64,000 nucleotides of DNA from NCBI RefSeq assembly GCF_030252185.1, contig NZ_CP126970.1, forward strand, positions 1,550,001-1,614,000, read 5' to 3'. The DNA comes from Corynebacterium suedekumii. GTDB taxonomy: Bacteria; Actinomycetota; Actinomycetes; Mycobacteriales; Mycobacteriaceae. Shown here piece by piece: positions 9,649 to 63,292 of the stretch (position 1 is its first letter; every line of letters starts with the position of its first letter). Position numbers and translations under genes: made by a program. The notes beneath the pieces were generated by a model. That model was not told the origin of the DNA, searched no databases, and saw only the letters and a list, made by a program, of their open reading frames with translations.

Positions 9649-9786
9649 CGGAGATTTCTGATTTCGGGTTCCGGGGTGTACCATGGTCCGAGTTGTCAAT
9701 CTCCAACCCAACTCAGGCACGATCCCGGACCGCACGCGAATGCCGGGAACCGACCTGATGTTCCATCCTGAGGGAATCGAGAATCT

Positions 9787-48903: not shown

Positions 48904-50727
<1,824 letters not shown>

Positions 50728-51249
50728 ACGACGTGGGGACACGCCCCATGCATACGCGGGTGGGGACAGGTCGAACAGTCCGGGATCATCGAAGTCCGGT
50801 GGATCCTGAGCTGGTTTCCGGTTTCTGGCCCTGAGGGCAACGTTCCCCACCAGGCAGGAGGTCGTCAATGAGCTTCGACGTGGCTGACCTCCTCGGCTTC
50901 GCCGGTGGAGTCCTCAGCGCGTACCTGCTCTACCTCGGCACCAAGGTGAAAGTGAAGTCAGACAAGGAGGCGTCCCTGCCGGACGGGTGGGAGAACCTGA
51001 CCGGCGCGATGCAGGACTTTTTCGAGGCGCAGCTGGAGGAGCGGGATCGGGCTATCGCGGAGGATCGGGTGCGGATCGCGGAGCTCGAAGCCCGGGATGA
51101 GGAGCGCGGCGAGTACCTCGGGTGGGTGACGCAGATCATGCGGGGGATTGAGTCGTGGGCGGCGCGGGAGGGGCTGACGTTGCCGCCGCCAAGGGTGTCA
51201 GATGGTTTGTGTGTGAGGGATTCCCCTCACACCAAGGAGATGAACCAGA

Positions 51250-52578
51250 ATGACTACCGTGGCACGACGAAACCCAGAAGACTCCGCAAAGATCAAAGCG
51301 ATCGAGGAAAAGCTGCTGGCCAATCCTGAGATGGCGAAACTGATCGACGAGCTCGGCACCTCCACAACGGATGCCAACGATCTCGTCCGGGGCCTGCTCC
51401 AGGCCTCGATCAACCGCGGCCTCAACGCCGAGATGGATGCCCACCTCGGCTACCAGCACGGTGACCGGGACAGCAAGGAAGCCGCTGGTCAGAACAATTC
51501 CCGTAACGGTTCCTACCCCAAGCGGGTCGATTCGAACTACGGACCGGTCGATGTCGCTGTTCCCAGGGACCGTGACGGATCCTTCCTGCCGACAATGGTG
51601 CCCAAAGGATCCCGCCGGCTGACCGACGTCGACGACATGATCATCAGTCTCTATGCCGGTGGCATGACCGTCCGAGACATCCAGCACCACATGGTCACCG
51701 CCATGGGCGTGGACATCTCCCATGAAACAATCTCCGCGATCACCGATGCGGTCCTCGAGGAGGTGCTGATCTGGCAGAACCGCCAACTCGAGGAGTTCTA
51801 CCCCGTGATCTTCCTCGATGCGTTACGCATCAAAGTCCGTGACGGGGGCCGGGTGGTCAACAAATCCGCGTACCTGGCTATCGGGGTGGACATGGACGGG
51901 ATCAAACACATCCTCGGTATCTGGCTGGCGAAAGAGGAAGGAGCCTCGTTCTGGGCCCAGGTGTGCGCCAACCTCGCTACCCGCGGCGTACACGATGTGT
52001 TTATCGTGTGCTGCGACGGGCTCAAGGGCCTGCCGGAGGCTGTGGAAGCCACCTGGCCGGATTCGATGGTCCAGACCTGTGTCGTCCATCTGATCAGGGC
52101 AGCGAACCGGTGGGTGGCCTACGGAGATCGCAAAGCGGTGTCCGCCCAGCTGAAGAAGATCTACACCGCCCCCACCGAGCAGACCGCTCTGGCGGCGTTG
52201 GCGGAGTTCGAGGCCTCCGAGCTGGGGGAAAAGTACCCGCAGTCAGTCAAGGTGTGGCGCGATGCGTGGGACCGGTTCATCCCGTTCCTGGAGTTTCCTC
52301 CCATGGCCCGGAAGGTGATCTACACCACGAACTCGATTGAGTCGATGAACAACGAGCTGCGCAAAGCCACCCGGAATCGGGTGCAGTTTACCAACGATGA
52401 GTCCGCGATCAAAACCTTGTGGTTGATGATCTGCAACATCGAGGACAAACGGGCCGCCAAGCGCGCTAAGCAGGGTAAACGGGTCGCGGCTACCAGTGGC
52501 CGGCTGATCGAGGGCAGGCGGGTGACGAACTGGAAGCAGGCCATCAACCAGATGTCTGTGGCCTACCCGGACCGCTGA
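51250..52578 (+). pseudogene. IS256-family transposase, copy 1, end displaced
   Basis: 442 residues, cut at VAYPDR by the insertion of copy 2; the true end FEPYL lies after copy 2. DDE core present: VIFLDALRIKV, VFIVCCDGLKGLP and NSIESMNNELRK. A stop arises right at the junction (TGA in CTGAGG), so only five residues are lost and it may keep activity. Only single-base differences from copy 2 are seen. Confidence 0.88.
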
Positions 52579-54015
52579 GGGTGTCAGATGGTTTGTGTGT
52601 GAGGGATTCCCCTCACACCAAGGAGATGAACCAGAATGACTACCGTGGCACGACGAAACCCAGAAGACTCCGCAAAGATCAAAGCGATCGAGGAAAAGCT
52701 GCTGGCCAATCCTGAGATGGCGAAACTGATCGACGAGCTCGGCACCTCCACAACGGATGCCAACGATCTCGTCCGGGGCCTGCTCCAGGCCTCGATCAAC
52801 CGCGGCCTCAACGCCGAGATGGATGCCCACCTCGGCTACCAGCACGGTGACCGGGACAGCAAGGAAGCCGCTGGTCAGAACAATTCCCGTAACGGTTCCT
52901 ACCCCAAGCGGGTCGATTCGAACTACGGACCGGTCGATGTCGCTGTTCCCAGGGACCGTGACGGATCCTTCCTGCCGACAATGGTGCCCAAAGGATCCCG
53001 CCGGCTGACCGACGTCGACGACATGATCATCAGTCTCTATGCCGGTGGCATGACCGTCCGAGACATCCAGCACCACATGGTCACCGCCATGGGCGTGGAC
53101 ATCTCCCATGAAACAATCTCCGCGATCACCGATGCGGTCCTCGAGGAGGTGCTGATCTGGCAGAACCGCCAACTCGAGGAGTTCTACCCCGTGATCTTCC
53201 TCGATGCGTTACGCATCAAAGTCCGTGACGGGGGCCGGGTGGTCAACAAATCCGCGTACCTGGCTATCGGGGTGGACATGGACGGGATCAAACACATCCT
53301 CGGTATCTGGCTGGCGAAAGAGGAAGGAGCCTCGTTCTGGGCCCAGGTGTGCGCCAACCTCGCTACCCGCGGCGTACACGATGTGTTTATCGTGTGCTGC
53401 GACGGGCTCAAGGGCCTGCCGGAGGCTGTGGAAGCCACCTGGCCGGATTCGATGGTCCAGACCTGTGTCGTCCATCTGATCAGGGCAGCGAACCGGTGGG
53501 TGGCCTACGGAGATCGCAAAGCGGTGTCCGCCCAGCTGAAGAAGATCTACACCGCCCCCACCGAGCAGACCGCTCTGGCGGCGTTGGCGGAGTTCGAGGC
53601 CTCCGAGCTGGGGGAAAAGTACCCGCAGTCAGTCAAGGTGTGGCGCGATGCGTGGGACCGGTTCATCCCGTTCCTGGAGTTTCCTCCCATGGCCCGGAAG
53701 GTGATCTACACCACGAACTCGATTGAGTCGATGAACAACGAGCTGCGCAAAGCCACCCGGAATCGGGTGCAGTTTACCAACGATGAGTCCGCGATCAAAA
53801 CCTTGTGGTTGATGATCTGCAACATCGAGGACAAACGGGCCGCCAAGCGCGCTAAGCAGGGCAAACGGGTCGCGGCTACCAGTGGCCGGCTGATCGAGGG
53901 CAGGCGGGTGACGAACTGGAAGCAGGCCATCAACCAGATGTCTGTGGCCTACCCGGACCGCTTCGAGCCCTACCTCTAATAATCACGCCCCACACACAAA
54001 CAACTTGACACGCTC
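52577..54015 (+). mobile_element. IS256-family element, copy 2
   Basis: 1439 bases, GAGGGTGTCAGATGG to TTGACACGCTC. Target duplication GGACCGCT at 52569-52576 and 54016-54023, taken from the 3' end of the copy 1 transposase gene. The youngest part of this nest. Confidence 0.92.
52636..53979 (+). CDS. IS256-family transposase, copy 2
   Basis: 447 residues, complete. Begins MTTVARRNPEDSAKIKAIEE; the DDE residues are in FLDALRIKVRDGG, CCDGLKGLPEAV and the C-terminal NSIESMNNELRKAT. AAGGAG precedes the ATG. This is the only intact copy of the three, so it is the likely source of transposition. Confidence 0.95.
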   Translation: MTTVARRNPEDSAKIKAIEEKLLANPEMAKLIDELGTSTTDANDLVRGLLQASINRGLNAEMDAHLGYQHGDRDSKEAAGQNNSRNGSYPKRVDSNYGPVDVAVPRDRDGSFLPTMVPKGSRRLTDVDDMIISLYAGGMTVRDIQHHMVTAMGVDISHETISAITDAVLEEVLIWQNRQLEEFYPVIFLDALRIKVRDGGRVVNKSAYLAIGVDMDGIKHILGIWLAKEEGASFWAQVCANLATRGVHDVFIVCCDGLKGLPEAVEATWPDSMVQTCVVHLIRAANRWVAYGDRKAVSAQLKKIYTAPTEQTALAALAEFEASELGEKYPQSVKVWRDAWDRFIPFLEFPPMARKVIYTTNSIESMNNELRKATRNRVQFTNDESAIKTLWLMICNIEDKRAAKRAKQGKRVAATSGRLIEGRRVTNWKQAINQMSVAYPDRFEPYL

Positions 54016-54150
54016 GGACCGCTTCGAGCCCTACCTCTAATAATCACGCCCCACACACAAACAACTTGACACGCTCCCGCCGCCGTTCAAGAACTTTCAG
54101 GAGTGGCGGCGTGACCGCCCGCATATCCGTAACCCGCCGCCCTAACCCCT

Positions 54151-54178
54151 CGCCCCGCACCGTGATGGTGCGGGGCGC
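54151..54178 (+). terminator. Terminator after the split phage-like gene
   Basis: CGCCCCGCACC and GGTGCGGGGCG form a perfect 11-bp stem around GTGATG-type loop bases, followed by CTTTCG. It lies 6 bases after the restored stop codon of the phage-like gene. Confidence 0.7.
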
Positions 54179-54205
54179 TTTCGTCATTCCTGGGGTGGCC
54201 ACGGG

Positions 54206-54403
54206 CCGGGACCATGCTCATCCAGCCACGCTCTCCGCGACCACGACGCCTACATGCAAGTCCTCTGGTACTTCGACCCCACCGCACCCGGCGCCCGCCA
54301 ACCCGGCAGCTTCAGCCACCACCTCATCCAAGCCTTCGCCCGCGCCGACATCACCAACGCCCTCACTTCCGCCCACGCCTACCTGGAAAGAACCACCCCA
54401 TGA
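54206..54403 (+). pseudogene. Phage-like gene remnant, C-terminal part
   Basis: A frame ending at 54403 reads HALRDHDAYMQVLWYFDPTA, then PGSFSHHLIQAFARADITNA and AHAYLERTTP. Short proteins with PGSF...LIxAFARAD occur in actinobacterial prophages. No good start codon precedes the conserved part; the first internal ATG is at 54254. Its TGA overlaps the ATG of the next gene. Confidence 0.45.
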
Positions 54404-54528
54404 CCACCCTGACCATCGGCCCACTCATCCTCGGTCTACTCACCGCCATCACCCTCCATGGGTCTGGTGCAGGAACTGGTGACATCGAGCGTGGCTAGCC
54501 GAGAGGGCTGGCCTGGAAGGATGTCATC

Positions 54529-54822
54529 ATGCCCAAGCCGTTCCCCAAGGAGTTCCGCGACGACGTGATCCGCGTGGCGGAGAATCGTGATCCGGAAGTG
54601 ACGCTCGCGCAGATCGCGAAGGACTTCGGCGTCCATGTCGGAACTCTCGATAAGTGGATGCGGCAGGCCCGCATCGAGGCCGGCGAACAGCCGGGTGAGA
54701 CGAAGCAGGAGTCCGTGGAGTTGCGTGATCTCCGTAAGCGCAATCGCCTCCTCGAGCAGGAGGTCGAGGTCCTGCGCCGCGCGACCGCGTATCTGTCTCA
54801 GGCTCATCTGCCGGGAAAATGA
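54529..54822 (+). CDS. IS3-family OrfA, copy A
   Basis: 97 residues: helix-turn-helix (PKPFPKEFRDDVIRVAENRD, IAKDFGVHVGTLDKWMRQAR) and a leucine zipper (LRKRNRLLEQEVEVLRRATA). An A4 run at its end (GGGAAAATGA) is a likely -1 frameshift site joining it to orfB. Confidence 0.93.
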   Translation: MPKPFPKEFRDDVIRVAENRDPEVTLAQIAKDFGVHVGTLDKWMRQARIEAGEQPGETKQESVELRDLRKRNRLLEQEVEVLRRATAYLSQAHLPGK

Positions 54823-55721
54823 TGTACCCGCTCGTTTCCGAGCTCGCCGCGGACGGGATTCCTGTCGTGGTGTCGTGTCGGGTATTGAAGCTCGCTCGTC
54901 AGCCGTACTACCGCTGGCTGAACAACCCCGTCACAAGGCGGGAGTTGGAGGAGGCGTATCGCGCGAACGCGCTGTTCAATGCTCACCGTGACGACCCGGA
55001 GTTCGGGTATCGGCTCCTCGCCGACGAAGCCCGCGACGAGGGCGAGCCGATGGCGGATCGGACGGCGTGGCGGATCGCATCGTTGAACGGCTGGTGGAGT
55101 GTGTTCGGGAAGAAGCGGAGCAAGAACGGCAAGAAGCCTGGCCCTGCTGTTCATGATGATCTCTGTGTCGTCATCGACGAGCGCGGCCGGGAGCGCCACC
55201 AGTTCGTCGCTTCCCGACCGAACCAGCTCTGGCTAACCGACATCACGGAACACAAAACGAGCGAAGGCCGACTTTATCTTTGCGCGGTCAAGGATGCGTT
55301 CAGCGGCCGGATCGTGGGCTACTCGATCGACTCGCGCATGAAGGCATCTCTCGCGGTTCGCGCTGTCCGCAACGCCGCCCGGATGCGCGGAAACGTGAAC
55401 GGCTGCATCGTTCATTCGGACAGAGGGTCGCAGTTTCGAAGCAGGAAGCTGCGCCGCGAACTCGCTACCCATAATCTCGTCGGCTCGATGGGCAGGGTTG
55501 CTTCTTGCGGCGACAACGCGGCGATGGAATCGTTCTTCAGCCTGCTGCAGAAGAACGTCCTGAACCGGCGCTCCTGGGCCACCCGCGAACAGCTGCGCAT
55601 CGCGATCGTGACCTGGATCGAGCGGACCTATCACCGGCGACGTCGACAGGTCCGCCTGGGCCGTTTGACGCCCATCGAGTTCGAGACCATCATGAACAAC
55701 GACCTGGCCCTCGCGGCCTAA
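54819..55721 (+). CDS. IS3-family OrfB transposase, copy A
   Basis: 300 residues. Integrase core: LWLTDITEHKT (Asp), CIVHSDRGSQF (Asp) and DNAAMESFFSLLQKNVLN (Glu). The ATG overlaps the orfA stop. Intact, unlike copy B. Confidence 0.94.
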   Translation: MMYPLVSELAADGIPVVVSCRVLKLARQPYYRWLNNPVTRRELEEAYRANALFNAHRDDPEFGYRLLADEARDEGEPMADRTAWRIASLNGWWSVFGKKRSKNGKKPGPAVHDDLCVVIDERGRERHQFVASRPNQLWLTDITEHKTSEGRLYLCAVKDAFSGRIVGYSIDSRMKASLAVRAVRNAARMRGNVNGCIVHSDRGSQFRSRKLRRELATHNLVGSMGRVASCGDNAAMESFFSLLQKNVLNRRSWATREQLRIAIVTWIERTYHRRRRQVRLGRLTPIEFETIMNNDLALAA

Positions 55722-55945
55722 CCAGAACTGTCACCAGTCCCTGCACCAGACCCCATGTCGCGGCAAGCAAGATGCTCAGAATCCAGGACGAACTAGACCA
55801 CACCCACGCCATCGCTCACGCAGCCCTCACCGCCCTGGAGCTCCACCTCCAAGGCAAGGCCGTCCAGATCCTGCATCTACCACTCCGCAACACCCCCGAA
55901 GAGCAATAAAAACCGTGCCCAGCCCCGTAGCGAACTCCCACGCTC

Positions 55946-55957
55946 TACCATGAGAAA
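55946..55957 (+). promoter_or_regulatory. Leaderless promoter of the GHKL/nuclease gene
   Basis: TACCAT at 55946-55951 and 6 bases to the GTG at 55958. No Shine-Dalgarno is present, in line with a leaderless message. It shows the gene has its own promoter. Confidence 0.45.
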
Positions 55958-57931
55958 GTGACTACTTTGACCATTCAAGCAGGTGGAGACCATATCCAGC
56001 GCCTTTCCGGACAAGGCTCTCCGGAAAAAGCTCTAGTCGAGCTTGTGTGGAACGCCCTCGACGCAGAAGCCACCAAAGTCGATGTCATCGTCGACCGAAA
56101 CGACATCAACGGCATTGATGCGATCACCGTTAAAGACAACGGTCACGGCTTCAACAGCCACGAGGCACGCGGCGACTTCGGCAACATCGGCGATTCTTGG
56201 AAACGAAAAAACACTAAAACCAAGAATCACATGAGAGCCCTACACGGCAGTAAAGGCCAGGGGCGCATCCGTGGTTTCGCCCTCGGCACCGAGATTCACT
56301 GGGACAGCATCGCCAGGGCCGTAGCCGGCGGGTTTGAACGCACCACCGTTAAGGCCAATTCAGCCAGCCTAGCCCAGGTAACGATCTCATCCGAAGCACT
56401 TGAAGGCGAACACTGTGAAACTGGGACCAGTTTCACCGCAGAGAACAAGAGCCAAAGGACGTTGCCTCAGCTGGATTCCGGCGAGGCTAAGTCAGAACTC
56501 CTGGAGTCCTTTGCACCTCTGCTCATTGCGGAACCTGACCTGGTCATAAACTACGACGGCGAACGGCTCGACCCGAAGAGCAACATCCACGACGATAAAA
56601 CACTAGTGGTGGAGTTCGGAAACGACGATCAGACCGCCCAACTTCGGGTCATCCGATGGAAGGCCGGTAAGCACCGCCGTATCCTGTTCGGCCCTACATC
56701 CGAGCACTTCATTGAACAACTCAACGACAGTGAAGGCTACAGTTCATACGCTTATACCGCCTACGCTTCTTCACAAGTGCTGAACGCGGACAATGCAAAA
56801 GACCTTGTCCTCGACGCGGTGGAAGGCTCGGAAGCTCCGTTGCTCCACTGTAAGGAAGCAGTCCTAACAACCCTTCATTCTTACCTTCGCACCAAGGCCT
56901 CAGAGGAACGCGAAAGACGCGTCTCGGATTGGAAGGAAAAGGGTGTTTACCCGTATGAGGGGACTCCAAAGAACAGGGCAGAACAAACTGAGAGGGCCGT
57001 ATTCGACACCATTGCAGGGGCCATTTCCGACCAAATCCCCCGAGGCAAGGAAAGAGCCAAACTTACCCTCGACCTGCTAAAGACCTCGATGCAGAGCGAC
57101 CCAGATAGCCTAAATAGGATTCTCTCTGAAGTAGTCAGCCTCTCTGAACGCGACCGCCAAGCGCTAGACATTCTGCTAAGAGAAACGACGCTGCCCAACA
57201 TCATCCAGTCTGCCAACACTGTGTCTCGTAGATACAAAGTCCTAGCAGGATTGGAGAAGTTGGTCCTCAGTGGAGCCGATTCCAAACCTGTGAAAGAACG
57301 TCAGCATCTCCACATGATACTGGAAAACGAACTGTGGATATTTGGGGAAGGCTACTCAACAATGACGTCCGAAAGAGCCCTGACGAACCTGCTGCGCGAG
57401 CATCTTAAGCTCTCCGGACTCCCCGCGGACTCGGCGGAACCGGTGAAGACACTAGAAGGAAAGGCCGGTCGAACTGATCTCCACTTCGCGGTTCAAAACC
57501 GAGAGCATGACCGGACTAGGCACCTGATTGTCGAACTCAAACGACCATCCGTTAGTGCCACCAAGGAAGAACTTTCACAGGTTAGCAATTACGGAACTGC
57601 CATAGCTGAGGACCCGGCCTTCCGGGCTGGACAAAGCGAATGGGACATCGTGTTGGTAGTAAGTAACTTCGGGCGCGGCGTTCTGCGTGAAATCACAGAC
57701 AAGAACACCGGGATGTTCAACGAGTACAACGAACCCGGGGAACCACACGTACGGATGTTTGTCCGCTCGTGGGCGACGATAATCGACGAAAATCGTCGGC
57801 GGCTCGACTTCATGAACAGGTCCCTCAAGATCAATCCAGACAGCGACGAAGGCCTCAACTACCTAAAGGACCTCTACCCGGACTACCTCCCCGCCGAAAT
57901 CCTTCAAGAAGGAACGAACGAAGTTGCCTAG
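55958..57931 (+). CDS. GHKL ATPase fused to a Shedu-like PD-(D/E)XK nuclease domain
   Basis: 657 residues, soluble. N-terminal GHKL (Hsp90/MutL-type) ATPase: N box ALVELVWNALDAEATKVDV (Glu28, Asn32, Asp35), DNGHGFN (60-66) and HGSKGQGRIRGFALG (96-110). Middle: helical region of about 300 residues. C-terminus: ENELWIFGEGYS (about 455), RTDLHF with Asp507 and HLIVELKRPS with Glu526-x-Lys528, then QVSNYG; this is the layout of Shedu (DUF4263) nucleases. Base use is visibly more AT-rich than the neighbours, so it was acquired. It stands alone in a prophage-like remnant. Probably a single-gene anti-phage system; function is inference. Confidence 0.75.
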   Translation: MTTLTIQAGGDHIQRLSGQGSPEKALVELVWNALDAEATKVDVIVDRNDINGIDAITVKDNGHGFNSHEARGDFGNIGDSWKRKNTKTKNHMRALHGSKGQGRIRGFALGTEIHWDSIARAVAGGFERTTVKANSASLAQVTISSEALEGEHCETGTSFTAENKSQRTLPQLDSGEAKSELLESFAPLLIAEPDLVINYDGERLDPKSNIHDDKTLVVEFGNDDQTAQLRVIRWKAGKHRRILFGPTSEHFIEQLNDSEGYSSYAYTAYASSQVLNADNAKDLVLDAVEGSEAPLLHCKEAVLTTLHSYLRTKASEERERRVSDWKEKGVYPYEGTPKNRAEQTERAVFDTIAGAISDQIPRGKERAKLTLDLLKTSMQSDPDSLNRILSEVVSLSERDRQALDILLRETTLPNIIQSANTVSRRYKVLAGLEKLVLSGADSKPVKERQHLHMILENELWIFGEGYSTMTSERALTNLLREHLKLSGLPADSAEPVKTLEGKAGRTDLHFAVQNREHDRTRHLIVELKRPSVSATKEELSQVSNYGTAIAEDPAFRAGQSEWDIVLVVSNFGRGVLREITDKNTGMFNEYNEPGEPHVRMFVRSWATIIDENRRRLDFMNRSLKINPDSDEGLNYLKDLYPDYLPAEILQEGTNEVA

Positions 57932-58056
57932 TTCACCATTCCAACTAGCCGCCTACTTTTCCACCCCACGACGTTAGCCTGAGTGACGGGTCTGGTGCAG
58001 GAACTGGTGACATCGAGCGTGGCTAGCCGAGAGGGCTGGCCTGGAAGGATGTCATC

Positions 58057-58350
58057 ATGCCCAAGCCGTTCCCCAAGGAGTTCCGCGACGACGTGATCCG
58101 CGTGGCGGAGAATCGTGATCCGGAAGTGACGCTCGCGCAGATCGCGAAGGACTTCGGCGTCCATGTCGGAACTCTCGATAAGTGGATGCGGCAGGCCCGC
58201 ATCGAGGCCGGCGAACAGCCGGGTGAGACGAAGCAGGAGTCCGTGGAGTTGCGTGATCTCCGTAAGCGCAATCGCCTCCTCGAGCAGGAGGTCGAGGTCC
58301 TGCGCCGCGCGACCGCGTATCTGTCTCAGGCTCATCTGCCGGGAAAATGA
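58057..58350 (+). CDS. IS3-family OrfA, copy B
   Basis: 97 residues, same sequence as copy A OrfA (PKPFPKEFRDDVIRVAENRD, then a helix-turn-helix and a leucine zipper). Intact, but the partner orfB is broken. Confidence 0.93.
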   Translation: MPKPFPKEFRDDVIRVAENRDPEVTLAQIAKDFGVHVGTLDKWMRQARIEAGEQPGETKQESVELRDLRKRNRLLEQEVEVLRRATAYLSQAHLPGK

Positions 58351-58812
58351 TGTACCCGCTCGTTTCCGAGCTCGCCGCGGACGGGATTCCTGTCGTGGTG
58401 TCGTGTCGGGTATTGAAGCTCGCTCGTCAGCCGTACTACCGCTGGCTGAACAACCCCGTCACAAGGCGGGAGTTGGAGGAGGCGTATCGCGCGAACGCGC
58501 TGTTCAATGCTCACCGTGACGACCCGGAGTTCGGGTATCGGCTCCTCGCCGACGAAGCCCGCGACGAGGGCGAGCCGATGGCGGATCGGACGGCGTGGCG
58601 GATCGCATCGTTGAACGGCTGGTGGAGTGTGTTCGGGAAGAAGCGGAGCAAGAACGGCAAGAAGCCTGGCCCTGCTGTTCATGATGATCTCTGTGTCGTC
58701 ATCGACGAGCGCGGCCGGGAGCGCCACCAGTTCGTCGCTTCCCGACCGAACCAGCTCTGGCTAACCGACATCACGGAACACAAAACGAGCGAAGGCCGAC
58801 TTTATCTTTGCG

Positions 58813-60252
58813 GAGCGTGTCAAGTTGTTTGTGTGTGGGGCGTGATTATTAGAGGTAGGGCTCGAAGCGGTCCGGGTAGGCCACAGACATCTGGTTGATG
58901 GCCTGCTTCCAGTTCGTCACCCGCCTGCCCTCGATCAGCCGGCCACTGGTAGCCGCGACCCGTTTGCCCTGCTTAGCGCGCTTGGCGGCCCGTTTGTCCT
59001 CGATGTTGCAGATCATCAACCACAAGGTTTTGATCGCGGACTCATCGTTGGTAAACTGCACCCGATTCCGGGTGGCTTTGCGCAGCTCGTTGTTCATCGA
59101 CTCAATCGAGTTCGTGGTGTAGATCACCTTCCGGGCCATGGGAGGAAACTCCAGGAACGGGATGAACCGGTCCCACGCATCGCGCCACACCTTGACTGAC
59201 TGCGGGTACTTTTCCCCCAGCTCGGAGGCCTCGAACTCCGCCAACGCCGCCAGAGCGGTCTGCTCGGTGGGGGCGGTGTAGATCTTCTTCAGCTGGGCGG
59301 ACACCGCTTTGCGATCTCCGTAGGCCACCCACCGGTTCGCTGCCCTGATCAGATGGACGACACAGGTCTGGACCATCGAATCCGGCCAGGTGGCTTCCAC
59401 AGCCTCCGGCAGGCCCTTGAGCCCGTCGCAGCACACGATAAACACATCGTGTACGCCGCGGGTAGCGAGGTTGGCGCACACCTGGGCCCAGAACGAGGCT
59501 CCTTCCTCTTTCGCCAGCCAGATACCGAGGATGTGTTTGATCGAAGTCCATGTCCACCCCGATAGCCAGGTACGCGGATTTGTTGACCACCCGGCCCCCG
59601 TCACGGACTTTGATGCGTAACGCATCGAGGAAGATCACGGGGTAGAACTCCTCGAGTTGGCGGTTCTGCCAGATCAGCACCTCCTCGAGGACCGCATCGG
59701 TGATCGCGGAGATTGTTTCATGGGAGATGTCCACGCCCATGGCGGTGACCATGTGGTGCTGGATGTCTCGGACGGTCATGCCACCGGCATAGAGACTGAT
59801 GATCATGTCGTCGACGTCGGTCAGCCGGCGGGATCCTTTGGGCACCATTGTCGGCAGGAAGGATCCGTCACGGTCCCTGGGAACAGCGACATCGACCGGT
59901 CCGTAGTTCGAATCGACCCGCTTGGGGTAGGAACCGTTACGGGAATTGTTCTGACCAGCGGCTTCCTTGCTGTCCCGGTCACCGTGCTGGTAGCCGAGGT
60001 GGGCATCCATCTCGGCGTTGAGGCCGCGGTTGATCGAGGCCTGGAGCAGGCCCCGGACGAGATCGTTGGCATCCGTTGTGGAGGTGCCGAGCTCGTCGAT
60101 CAGTTTCGCCATCTCAGGATTGGCCAGCAGCTTTTCCTCGATCGCTTTGATCTTTGCGGAGTCTTCTGGGTTTCGTCGTGCCACGGTAGTCATTCTGGTT
60201 CATCTCCTTGGTGTGAGGGGAATCCCTCACACACAAACCATCTGACACCCTC
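58813..60252 (-). mobile_element. IS256-family element, copy 3
   Basis: 1440 bases in reverse orientation. Ends GAGCGTGTCAAG and CTGACACCCTC. Target duplication TCTTTGCG at 58805-58812 and 60253-60260. One base longer than copies 1 and 2 because of a change within the transposase gene. Confidence 0.92.
58849..60193 (-). pseudogene. IS256-family transposase, copy 3, frameshifted
   Basis: Same protein as copy 2 up to AIGVDMD; there GGG of the other copies is replaced by TTCG (59539-59550 region), which shifts the frame. The second half is intact in another frame (IKHILGIWLAKEEGASFWAQ and on to DRFEPYL). Non-functional unless the change is an assembly artefact. Confidence 0.85.
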
Positions 60253-60827
60253 TCTTTGCGCGGTCAAGGATGCGTTCAGCGGCCGGATCGTGGGCTACTC
60301 GATCGACTCGCGCATGAAGGCATCTCTCGCGGTTCGCGCTGTCCGCAACGCCGCCCGGATGCGCGGAAACGTGAACGGCTGCATCGTTCATTCGGACAGA
60401 GGGTCGCAGTTTCGAAGCAGGAAGCTGCGCCGCGAACTCGCTACCCATAATCTCGTCGGCTCGATGGGCAGGGTTGCTTCTTGCGGCGACAACGCGGCGA
60501 TGGAATCGTTCTTCAGCCTGCTGCAGAAGAACGTCCTGAACCGGCGCTCCTGGGCCACCCGCGAACAGCTGCGCATCGCGATCGTGACCTGGATCGAGCG
60601 GACCTATCACCGGCGACGTCGACAGGTCCGCCTGGGCCGTTTGACGCCCATCGAGTTCGAGACCATCATGAACAACGACCTGGCCCTCGCGGCCTAACCA
60701 GAACTGTCACCAGTCCCTGCACCAGACCCGACCGCGACACCGGAGAAACGCATGAACACCCCCTTCGAAGTCACAGCAGGTCACGCGTAGGCTTGTCTCC
60801 CACCACCCACCAAACGAAAAGCACCCC

Positions 60828-61085
60828 ATGAGCAACTCCTTCCGAACTGTCAATTTCCGGACCCACCGCCAGGTCAAGAACGACTCAATCCACATCAACT
60901 TCTCCCGCGAAGGCGGCCAGACCGTTGCTGTCAAGATGGCGACCCTCTACACAGACGGCACACTCAAGATCGTCGTCGACGACACGGAGACCTACTACCC
61001 GCCGACGTCCTACTTCAGCGTGGAGTTCCCGACCAGGGAGTCTGACGACAAGGACAAGCGCCGTACGCGAGTCGTGCTCGCGTAA
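60828..61085 (+). CDS. Small hypothetical protein
   Basis: 85 residues, soluble: SFRTVNFRTHRQVKNDSIHI, then TVAVKMATLYTDGTLKIVVD and a charged end (ESDDKDKRRTRVV). No domain recognised. A 4-base A run and GCACCCC precede the ATG; no strong ribosome site. Lies in the remainder of island 2. Confidence 0.5.
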   Translation: MSNSFRTVNFRTHRQVKNDSIHINFSREGGQTVAVKMATLYTDGTLKIVVDDTETYYPPTSYFSVEFPTRESDDKDKRRTRVVLA

Positions 61086-61089
61086 AACT

Positions 61090-61542
61090 GTGCTGGAACA
61101 CGACCGGCGGCAGGCCGCGATTCGACACCTCGCAGGACGAATCGCGGTCGAACTCGTCTGGCCCAACCCCGACCTCACCCCCGACCCCGAACAACACGCG
61201 GCACACCTGATCAGCCTCGTCTGCAACACCAACATCGACGTCGGCCTCGCCGCCCTGGCCGTCGCCGGCCCCCTCATCGCAGACCTCCACGGGCACCCAC
61301 CCAATATCAACCTCGCCGCAGCGCTCATGGAGGACACCCTCGACGACCACCCCGACAACCGACTCGGCCACGACATCGGAATCGGATTCTGCCGCCACGT
61401 CTTCAACGTCGACACCATCGACCAGGCCATCGACTTCTTCGGGGAAACCATCGCCGATCCCACCCTGACCCAGGAACAAGCCGACGCGATGTTCCTGACC
61501 GCCCTCAGCACAATCTTCACGATCTACGCCACCGCGTTCTAA
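61090..61542 (+). CDS. Hypothetical helical protein
   Basis: About 150 residues, mainly helical: LEHDRRQAAIRHLAGRIAVE, PEQHAAHLISLVCNTNIDVG, LIADLHGHPPNINLAAALME, and a long C-terminal helix (TQEQADAMFLTALSTIFTIY). GTG start 5 bases after the previous stop suggests coupling. Family unknown; of plasmid or phage type by its context. Confidence 0.5.
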   Translation: MLEHDRRQAAIRHLAGRIAVELVWPNPDLTPDPEQHAAHLISLVCNTNIDVGLAALAVAGPLIADLHGHPPNINLAAALMEDTLDDHPDNRLGHDIGIGFCRHVFNVDTIDQAIDFFGETIADPTLTQEQADAMFLTALSTIFTIYATAF

Positions 61543-61572
61543 CCAGTCACCCGCCTCCACCAGCATGGCGGC

Positions 61573-61743
61573 ATGACCACACCTGATGACCTCCTCCGCA
61601 ACGTCGTCGCCGCTGAAACCGGCGGATGGACCGAAGCACAGAAAGCAGCCCTGCTGCACCGCCTCGCCCGCGAAGCCACCCGCATCGATGTCGGCCACCG
61701 CTACCCCACCGCCGGGACCCTCGCTCAGTCCATCGACCCCACC
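61573..61743 (+). pseudogene. Truncated phage/plasmid-type hypothetical gene
   Basis: About 57 residues: TTPDDLLRNVVAAETGGWTE, AQKAALLHRLAREATRIDVG and GTLAQSIDPTTT. The reading frame then runs into the reverse complement of another gene fragment, so it is cut at about 61743, the right edge of island 2. Confidence 0.5.
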
Positions 61744-61901
61744 ACCACAGCCAGTGGCTCCCGGTGTCCCAGGCACGCCGTGGCGATCATTTGGAGCTGC
61801 CACAGCTCCGGCTCCTCCGGGAGGTGGGCGAGGAGGGCGTCGAGGAGCTCCCGGCGTGACCGAGCGACGAGGTAGGTGTCGGCATCATCCGGAAAAATCA
61901 T
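61744..61901 (-). pseudogene. Truncated core gene at the right edge of island 2
   Basis: On the minus strand: MIFPDDADTYLVARSRRELL, then DALLAHLPEEPELWQLQMIA and TACLGHREPLA, then a sudden change. A small helical protein whose C-terminus was replaced by the island. ATG at 61901. Family not recognised. Confidence 0.45.
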
Positions 61902-62028
61902 GGGGCCAGAATCCCACAGGAATCCCGCACGCGCTCCGACTCTCGCAGCACGAGCGGCGCGGGTGGCACGAATGGCACAGCGTTGACCAGCGCAAATAGA
62001 AACCTCCAGGTCGCGTACCCTGGTGGGC

Positions 62029-62352
62029 ATGATCCTCATCAACGTCAAATTCCGCCCGCTGCCCGAGCACGTCGAGAACTTCCGCGAGATCGTCGCGGAG
62101 TTCACCGAGAAGACGCGCCAGGAGGCGGGCTGCATCTTCTTCGAGTGGTCCCGCAACACCGATGATCCGTCGGAGTACATCCTCATTGAGGCGTTCCAGG
62201 ATGACGCCGCGGAGGCGCACGTGAACTCCGATCATTTCACGGCCGCCACGGAGCTGTTCCCGACGGTGCTGTCGGAGACCCCGCAGATCATCAACACCTT
62301 CATCGAGGGGAAGAGCGACTGGGACCGGATGGCCGAGTTCCAGGTCGGCTGA
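62029..62352 (+). CDS. Antibiotic biosynthesis monooxygenase (ABM) domain protein
   Basis: 107 residues: MILINVKFRPLPEHVENFRE, QEAGCIFFEWSRN and YILIEAFQDDAAEAHVNSDH are typical of the ABM/YgiN dimeric alpha-beta barrel, quinone or heme-like oxygenases. ATG 62029 lies exactly 7 bases after TACCCT, so leaderless. Confidence 0.9.
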   Translation: MILINVKFRPLPEHVENFREIVAEFTEKTRQEAGCIFFEWSRNTDDPSEYILIEAFQDDAAEAHVNSDHFTAATELFPTVLSETPQIINTFIEGKSDWDRMAEFQVG

Positions 62353-62368
62353 CGGTAGGCTTTAGACC

Positions 62369-63292
62369 ATGGGTAAAAAGGACACCGCTGCTGCCGCCAG
62401 CAAAGCTGAGAAGGCCGAGAAGCCGGAGAAGCTGAACTCGAAGGCGTATGAGAAGGAACTCAAGCGCCTGCAGGCTGAGCTGGTGGACATGCAGCAGTGG
62501 GTGGTGGAGACGGGCGCGCGGGTGGTCATCATCATGGAGGGCCGTGACGCCGCCGGTAAGGGTTCCGCCATCAAGCGGATCACCCAGTACCTCAACCCGC
62601 GGTCGGCCCGCATCGAGGCGCTGCCGGCACCGAGCTCCCGGGAGCAGGGTCAGTGGTACTTCCAGCGGTACGTGGAGAAGCTGCCCACCGCCGGTGAGAT
62701 CGTCATCTTCGACCGCTCCTGGTACAACCGCGCCGGAGTGGAGCGGGTCATGGGCTTCTGCACCTCGCAGGAGTACCGCCGGTTCCTGCACCAGGCCCCG
62801 ATCTTCGAGCGTCTGCTCGTCGAGGACGGCATCCTGCTGCGCAAGTACTGGTTCTCGGTCTCGGATGAGGAGCAGCTCGCACGTTTCCAGTCCCGCCTGG
62901 AGGATCCGCTGCGCCGCTGGAAGCTGTCGCCGATGGATCTGCAGTCGATCACCCGCTGGGAGGACTATTCCCGGGCGAAGGATGAGATGTTCATCCACAC
63001 CGACATCCCCTCGGCACCCTGGTACACGGTGGAGAGCGAGGACAAGAAGCGTTCCCGCATCAACGTGATCTCGCATCTGCTCTCGACGATCCCGTACGAG
63101 AAGATCGAGCGTCCGCTGCCGGAGATCCCCGAGCGACCGGGCTCGGACAACAACTACGAGCGCCCGCCGCGTGCGGAGTTCCGTTACGTCCCGGACGTGG
63201 CGGCGAACCTGGCCAAGAGCCGCACCGGGGACAACGGGGACAAGGGCGGCAAGACGAAGTCCCGGAAGGAGCGCCCGGATGGACGCCACTGA
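62369..63292 (+). CDS. ppk2: Polyphosphate kinase 2
   Basis: 307 residues. Walker A GRDAAGKGSAIKRI, lid-type FDRSWYNRAGVERVMGFC and RKYWFSVSDEEQLARFQSRL mark class I PPK2, which makes GTP or ATP from polyphosphate. Charged N-terminal extension (KAEKAEKPEKLN). Leaderless ATG behind TAGGCT. Overlaps the next gene by 14 bases. Confidence 0.94.
   Translation: MGKKDTAAAASKAEKAEKPEKLNSKAYEKELKRLQAELVDMQQWVVETGARVVIIMEGRDAAGKGSAIKRITQYLNPRSARIEALPAPSSREQGQWYFQRYVEKLPTAGEIVIFDRSWYNRAGVERVMGFCTSQEYRRFLHQAPIFERLLVEDGILLRKYWFSVSDEEQLARFQSRLEDPLRRWKLSPMDLQSITRWEDYSRAKDEMFIHTDIPSAPWYTVESEDKKRSRINVISHLLSTIPYEKIERPLPEIPERPGSDNNYERPPRAEFRYVPDVAANLAKSRTGDNGDKGGKTKSRKERPDGRH

Follow-up and report, generated by a model that had tools for sequence, protein, structure and literature searches.

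The gene described here lies in a 64,000-nucleotide stretch of the Corynebacterium suedekumii genome (NZ_CP126970.1, positions 1,550,001 to 1,614,000; hereafter the window) and encodes a GHKL ATPase fused to a predicted PD-(D/E)XK nuclease. Its frame, at 55958-57931 on the forward strand, is open over 657 amino acids from a GTG start, exactly as the first-pass annotation had called it, and 69 homologues cover 95-100% of its length. The protein has a single match in its own genome, the gene itself (2.86 Mb, one contig searched). Its N-terminal part is a GHKL (Bergerat) ATPase domain (residues ~1-200; 55958-56557, forward strand like the segments that follow), recognised by PF13589, conservation and fold match and carrying E28, N32, D35, D60, G62, G64, G97, G100 and G102. 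An S5-like transducer region with the start of a long helix follows (residues ~206-318; 56573-56911), then a helical connector (residues ~294-437; 56837-57268) defined by the helices of the AlphaFold2 model, in which the predicted local distance difference test score drops to 51-62 near residues 381-420. The C-terminal part is a predicted Shedu-like PD-(D/E)XK nuclease domain (residues ~440-624; 57275-57829) with E447, D507, E526-x-K528 and Q541.

The motifs reported at first pass (E28/N32/D35, DNGHG, HGSKGQG, D507, E526-x-K528 and Q541) are all in place, with DNGHG at residues 60-64 and HGSKGQG at residues 96-102. In an alignment of 70 sequences, consisting of the window protein and 69 of its 89 homologue matches (its own duplicate and 19 shorter or partial matches were left out), N32, D35, D60, D507, E526 and K528 are unchanged throughout, and E28 and Q541 are at least 90% conserved. 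The nuclease core has an E-D-ExK layout whose four residues (E447, D507, E526 and K528) are invariant in the 70 sequences. Because the motifs are conserved across this alignment, they are not chance occurrences.

Using Pfam, we found that the ATPase part exceeds the cut-off of HATPase_c_3 (PF13589, E 6.9e-15), and structure comparison matched it to the folds of MORC, Hsp90 and MutL. Since the rows of the whole-model VIA-align comparison span mainly residues 7-398, the nuclease was modelled separately. SduA ranked first for the nuclease-only model in this second fold comparison (scores of 9.5 and 9.1), with B. cereus Shedu at 8.9 and 8.2, and other PD-(D/E)XK enzymes score close to these (BspD6I 8.8, EndoMS 8.4 and FokI 8.2). 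A sequence search of PDB with the nuclease profile returned four rows, all unrelated-looking, and Foldseek of the nuclease against viral models returned nothing below E 0.001. In these comparisons the two-domain reading of the first-pass annotation stands, with a MORC/MutL/Hsp90-like ATPase joined to a predicted PD-(D/E)XK fold that finds SduA first and has profile homology to Shedu C-termini; the outcome named at first pass as a refutation, no structural match of residues 455-560 to this fold, did not occur.

The profile homology was established with hhalign, which aligned the nuclease of the window clade to a profile of SduA_C domains over 162 columns with a probability of 98.5% (E 2.9e-14), compared with 0.2% for the reversed control. 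The nuclease alignment was built from the window protein and 55 of 76 genome loci (80 before L020, L036, L040 and L050 were removed because their matches contained stops). Of the 16 actinobacterial SduA_C loci, 13 went into the SduA_C profile; L085, L099 (a fragment) and L100 (a GHKL protein) did not. The window protein is not matched by the Pfam model DUF4263 (PF14082) even at E up to 1; in the 25 of 26 families listed at E 0.1, at most one of 70 clade members matches it, and it is found among the precomputed domains of none of the 89 homologues. The Shedu-like C-terminus proposed at first pass is thus supported at the profile level and, less firmly, at the fold level, but it lacks the Pfam signature, and because that signature test failed we file the clade as Shedu-like rather than Shedu. 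Relatives that combine GHKL with DUF4263 also seldom score, as PF14082 is precomputed for one of the 120 listed homologues of L100.

L100 is an actinobacterial GHKL+DUF4263 protein that, together with its relatives, is taken to be an arm resembling VcSduA, a Vibrio cholerae protein described as GHKL plus DUF4263 (PMC12137116). Compared half by half using hhalign, the window clade and this arm match at 98.4% over the ATPase and 82% over the nuclease. The spacing from the ATPase Glu to the nuclease Lys is 528-545 residues in the L100 relatives (49 of the 120 listed, in which both patterns were found) and 500 in the window protein. The best NCBIfam match of the window protein is NF050001, the BbrUII/HgiDII restriction enzyme family (E 1.8e-15), although its 56.5 bits are far from the cut-off of 550, and its sole PADLOC match is a type II restriction enzyme model at 17.4 bits. 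One protein that does exceed the NF050001 cut-off, L216, has GHKL, GRIDIRY and VELKR in this order; as a single sequence, it matches the window clade at 98.7% in the ATPase half and 6% in the nuclease half. Given these half-by-half profile matches and the motif order, our preferred placement of the window clade is as a sister branch within an architecture that is already known. L216 ends in a D...VELK module that, again as a single sequence, reaches 93% with the SduA_C set, and because of this module the BbrUII/HgiDII family may share the Shedu nuclease. Another protein above the cut-off, L215, showed no VELKR pattern and was not used.

The fusion gene has a GC content of 0.541 against a window mean of 0.670, and a value this low occurs in none of the 581 window frames of equal length, taken without overlap, in agreement with the AT-rich composition noted at first pass. 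Its third-position GC is 0.61, compared with about 0.9 in many of the genes called by a home-made caller that itself favours high third-position GC. By its composition the gene looks horizontally acquired, and its frame is intact. The private TACCAT promoter that had been proposed was not recovered, as a pattern scan of 55700-58100 detected no sigma-70-type site (shuffle mean 0.8). TACCAT itself (55946-55951, forward strand) ends 6 nt ahead of the GTG and, as a single six-base match, is weakly compatible with the -10 element of a leaderless transcript.

The gene sits between a gene for a two-domain ABC_tran protein, which we call ABC-F here, and an ABM monooxygenase/PPK2 pair (ABC-F to PPK2 interval 50727-62369). 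This gap measures 11.6 kb, compared with 1.2 kb in the relative with the closest PPK2 and ABC-F proteins (G018) and 0.8 kb in another (G009). Over 12 relatives, the spacing ranges from about 0.8 to 10 kb with different genes inside, and in several others the two genes are far apart. The idea that this interval is a defence hotspot of the genus was considered and rejected, as the intervals of the 12 relatives, whose open reading frames (ORFs) were read by eye, look mostly metabolic.

Much of the interval (51191-60729) is a pile-up of two IS3-family and three IS256-type insertion sequence (IS) copies, nested and nearly identical. As their target repeats are still readable and the copies near-identical, the insertions look recent. 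The IS3 name is our assignment from Pfam rve/HTH_Tnp_1 matches. Copy 1 (54460-55753, forward strand, 1294 bp) has CAT on both flanks, and copy 2 (57988-60729, forward strand), identical in sequence, has GAC on both flanks and is split by an IS256-type element at 58813-60252 that made an 8-bp duplication. Upstream, two nested IS256-type elements (Pfam Transposase_mut) occupy 51191-54076 on the forward strand, and CCGCCGCC can be read in the sequence at both of their outer flanks. The two identical, same-orientation IS3 copies that flank the fusion gene raise the possibility that it is the passenger of a composite transposon, possibly an unexpressed relic. A target duplication confined to the outer ends of the pair was not found; each copy has its own 3-bp repeat, as two separate insertions would leave, so that a composite IS3 transposon was rejected and the copies look like separate insertions. 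The frame is also intact and keeps its conserved catalytic residues, and we consider the passenger explanation very unlikely.

The first-pass annotation had placed the gene among prophage-like relics, a description that was not confirmed, as the neighbours are mainly insertion sequences. In a PHROGs scan of ten neighbouring ORFs, six gave no match, two proved to be transposases, and the remaining two, the ABM gene at 62023 and the ORF at 50868-51329 (E 7e-5 and 0.025), match only families of unknown function; no integrase or structural gene is among the matches. Beyond these weak matches to families of unknown function, a prophage remnant at the locus is unsupported.

Near-full-length homologues were identified in 2 of 101 genomes searched, the gene's own genome and one from another family of the order; other genomes of the same genus among the 101 gave no match, and two further matches cover the ATPase region only. 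Elsewhere in the window, an Rfam L31-Corynebacteriaceae ribosomal leader (9711-9775) points to that host family. In a scan of species genomes, 511 of 531 candidate stretches encode a relative (tblastn E <=1e-3, full length not implied), and 66 of the best 80 of the 511 are from Actinomycetota by record title. Relatives are also encoded in 48 plasmid records (with at least 80% coverage in 34), in two of 50,697 phage records, both Pasteurella phages, and at 41 viral-contig loci, where the match spans at least 600 residues in 33. In the two different Pasteurella phages (L101 and L102), the homologue lies at comparable positions among the tail genes, which may be a cargo site. One set of matches (P0077-P0090) consists of uniform proteins of 405-412 amino acids that match about 61% of the query, corresponding to the ATPase part, and may represent split versions whose nuclease is encoded separately; no such short forms were found in the viral-contig scan.

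This distribution bears on whether the protein is a MutL-like housekeeping repair protein, a reading suggested by MutL models that match its GHKL region weakly and by the fold match. A housekeeping role fits poorly with so patchy an occurrence, the foreign composition, and carriage on phages and plasmids. The nuclease is moreover predicted to have a PD-(D/E)XK fold, which MutL is not known to carry (see also PMC2292703). We therefore regard a repair role as extremely improbable.

Within four genes of the homologue at the 76 genome loci, we collected 565 neighbour proteins, and the clusters given here were named by Pfam from one representative each. HsdR-like proteins occur in this range at eight loci, HsdS-like at seven, HsdM-like at eight and YgjP-like at seven; each set is spread over three or four taxa, and several members come from Streptomyces. 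A further cluster, of three genes directly next to the homologue, is represented by a TrwC relaxase. No neighbour family is common to more than four taxa, and for this reason the gene is considered basically stand-alone. Six loci (L048, L052, L051, L053, L039 and L082), from Streptomyces and a gammaproteobacterial metagenome-assembled genome, share one order, an HsdR-sized gene, a YgjP-like metallopeptidase gene and the GHKL nuclease in the same direction; other type I restriction-modification (R-M) arrangements lie near homologues in Myxococcales, Pseudonocardiales and Deltaproteobacteria.

We also inspected 11 plasmid and phage neighbourhoods, nine of them annotated, and in three of the nine the homologue directly adjoins a restriction or methylase gene. 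In a Psychrobacter plasmid this neighbour encodes a LlaMI-type enzyme, with dcm and drt2 farther out; in Streptomyces longwoodensis it encodes an N-6 DNA methylase, and in Phaeobacter it is a type ISP R-M gene that overlaps the homologue by 4 bp. The other six, from two Pasteurella phages, Alisedimentitalea, Mesorhizobium and two Streptomyces plasmids, have no such adjoining gene; type IV secretion genes lie near the Alisedimentitalea homologue, and a helicase is encoded next door in both Streptomyces plasmids. Gene calling around 26 viral loci gave 154 neighbour proteins, and in the 100 of them that were examined, repressors, anti-repressors and integrases turn up repeatedly. For PADLOC, we compared 128 near with 128 far proteins at 32 loci (13 near-duplicate taxa having been dropped from 45 with full flanks); no defence-island enrichment is claimed, because families rather than members were tallied and the far genes also match methyltransferases.

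These contexts bring up a further explanation, that the protein is the restriction half of a BbrUII/HgiDII-like R-M system or a helper of a type I system, with its methyltransferase elsewhere in the genome. The NF050001 and PADLOC matches and the shared motif order of L216 agree with it, as do the relatives that adjoin R-M genes, and the same genome contains one N6_N4 methylase, some 315 kb from the fusion gene, and three N6_Mtase matches, all of them unlinked. Against it, no C5 methylase match was found in that genome at E 0.001, and the scanned ORFs from the ABC-F to the PPK2 gene include no methyltransferase or helper gene. Together with the absence of a neighbour family in more than four taxa and the weak C-terminal match to L216, this makes an R-M role distinctly unlikely.

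We favour the reading that the gene encodes a single-protein, GHKL-gated, Shedu-like defence nuclease, with a probability of roughly 0.8. The defence role inferred at first pass gains support by analogy, from the architecturally matching VcSduA as described (PMC12137116) and from the mobile and restriction contexts of some relatives. The N-terminal GHKL/S5 module would bind ATP, dimerise and close as a clamp, probably on DNA or DNA ends. Closure would position or release the two C-terminal PD-(D/E)XK domains (E447, D507, E526 and K528), and these domains would cut invading DNA while the chromosome is spared. For the window protein we infer that it forms a dimer clamp, senses DNA or its ends, cleaves DNA and restricts phage, the ATP-closed dimeric clamp that would control paired nucleases being drawn by analogy with GHKL ATPases and VcSduA. 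DNA-end binding is reported for E. coli SduA (PMC12904381), not for GHKL forms. A more elaborate proposal, which we regard as tentative and on balance improbable, is that of a separately evolved GHKL-gated clade outside the Shedu signature. Prophages and elements linked to a relaxase would carry it as a stand-alone defence, and in type I restriction islands the gene would be added behind HsdM-HsdS-HsdR-YgjP, where its ATP clamp might act on DNA already cut by restriction or on which restriction has stalled.

As a GHKL-gated defence nuclease, the protein would extend the tested VcSduA architecture to a widespread clade. In Pfam, NCBIfam and PADLOC, no specific model gives the window protein a score above its cut-off, and so automated defence surveys would likely miss it. 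The clade that it represents is a divergent and unlabelled branch of a tested system, and its link to restriction islands can be put to the test. As a compact protein with invariant active-site residues, it also offers a way to study the licensing of a restriction-fold nuclease by a MORC/MutL-type ATPase, a step left as a hypothesis in the account of VcSduA (PMC12137116).

Several known systems resemble the window protein. Classical Shedu proteins (E. coli SduA, 8ps4/8ps5; B. cereus Shedu, 8ti9/8ti8) share the nuclease fold and the E-D-ExK layout with it but have another N-terminal regulator, which in E. coli SduA is described as a clamp that binds DNA ends (PMC12904381). MORC2 and MORC3 are eukaryotic chromatin proteins that are not known to carry such a nuclease (see also PMC2292703). 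The BbrUII/HgiDII enzymes share the length class, the GHKL N-terminus and, in L216, the C-terminal D...ExK module; they are named type II restriction enzymes, whereas the window protein falls well below their cut-off and has no linked methyltransferase among the ORFs scanned.

The first-pass annotation took the fusion for undescribed, which is wrong, since paraMORC3 and VcSduA had already put a GHKL-nuclease fusion in print in 2008 and 2025. ParaMORC3 is described by Iyer, Abhiman and Aravind (2008; PMC2292703) as GHKL and S5 followed by a C-terminal restriction-fold domain with E-D-ExK, partly as standalone genes with a wide but sporadic distribution. The window protein, set beside that published description, likewise has GHKL with ATP-binding motifs, then S5, and a C-terminal domain of predicted restriction fold with E-D-ExK; paraMORC3 is reported as prevalent in proteobacteria and Bacteroidetes, while the window gene is actinobacterial. 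A search of the literature, largely at the level of listings, turned up nothing specific to the window clade.

VcSduA, a tested system, matches this design as a single-gene unit that, like the window protein, joins an N-terminal GHKL ATPase to a C-terminal PD-(D/E)XK nuclease. It is reported to be active on phage X29 in V. cholerae and on phages in E. coli, with similar protection at all tested multiplicities of infection, and E27A or K557A each abolish defence, so that both active sites are needed (PMC12137116). For the Shedu type I-D class, to which VcSduA is assigned, the same paper refers to Gu et al. 2025, and PMC12409362 repeats the assignment. The catalytic Glu is residue 27 in VcSduA and 28 in the window protein, both have the catalytic Lys of ExK, and the E28A and K528A variants proposed at first pass match the published ones in kind. 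By residue numbers only, the distance from Glu to Lys is 530 in VcSduA (E27 and K557 in the paper's numbering) and 500 here, and VcSduA is reported with DUF4263, a Pfam model that does not match the window protein. Taken together, the window protein is a divergent relative of a design described in 2008 and tested in 2025, not a new system.
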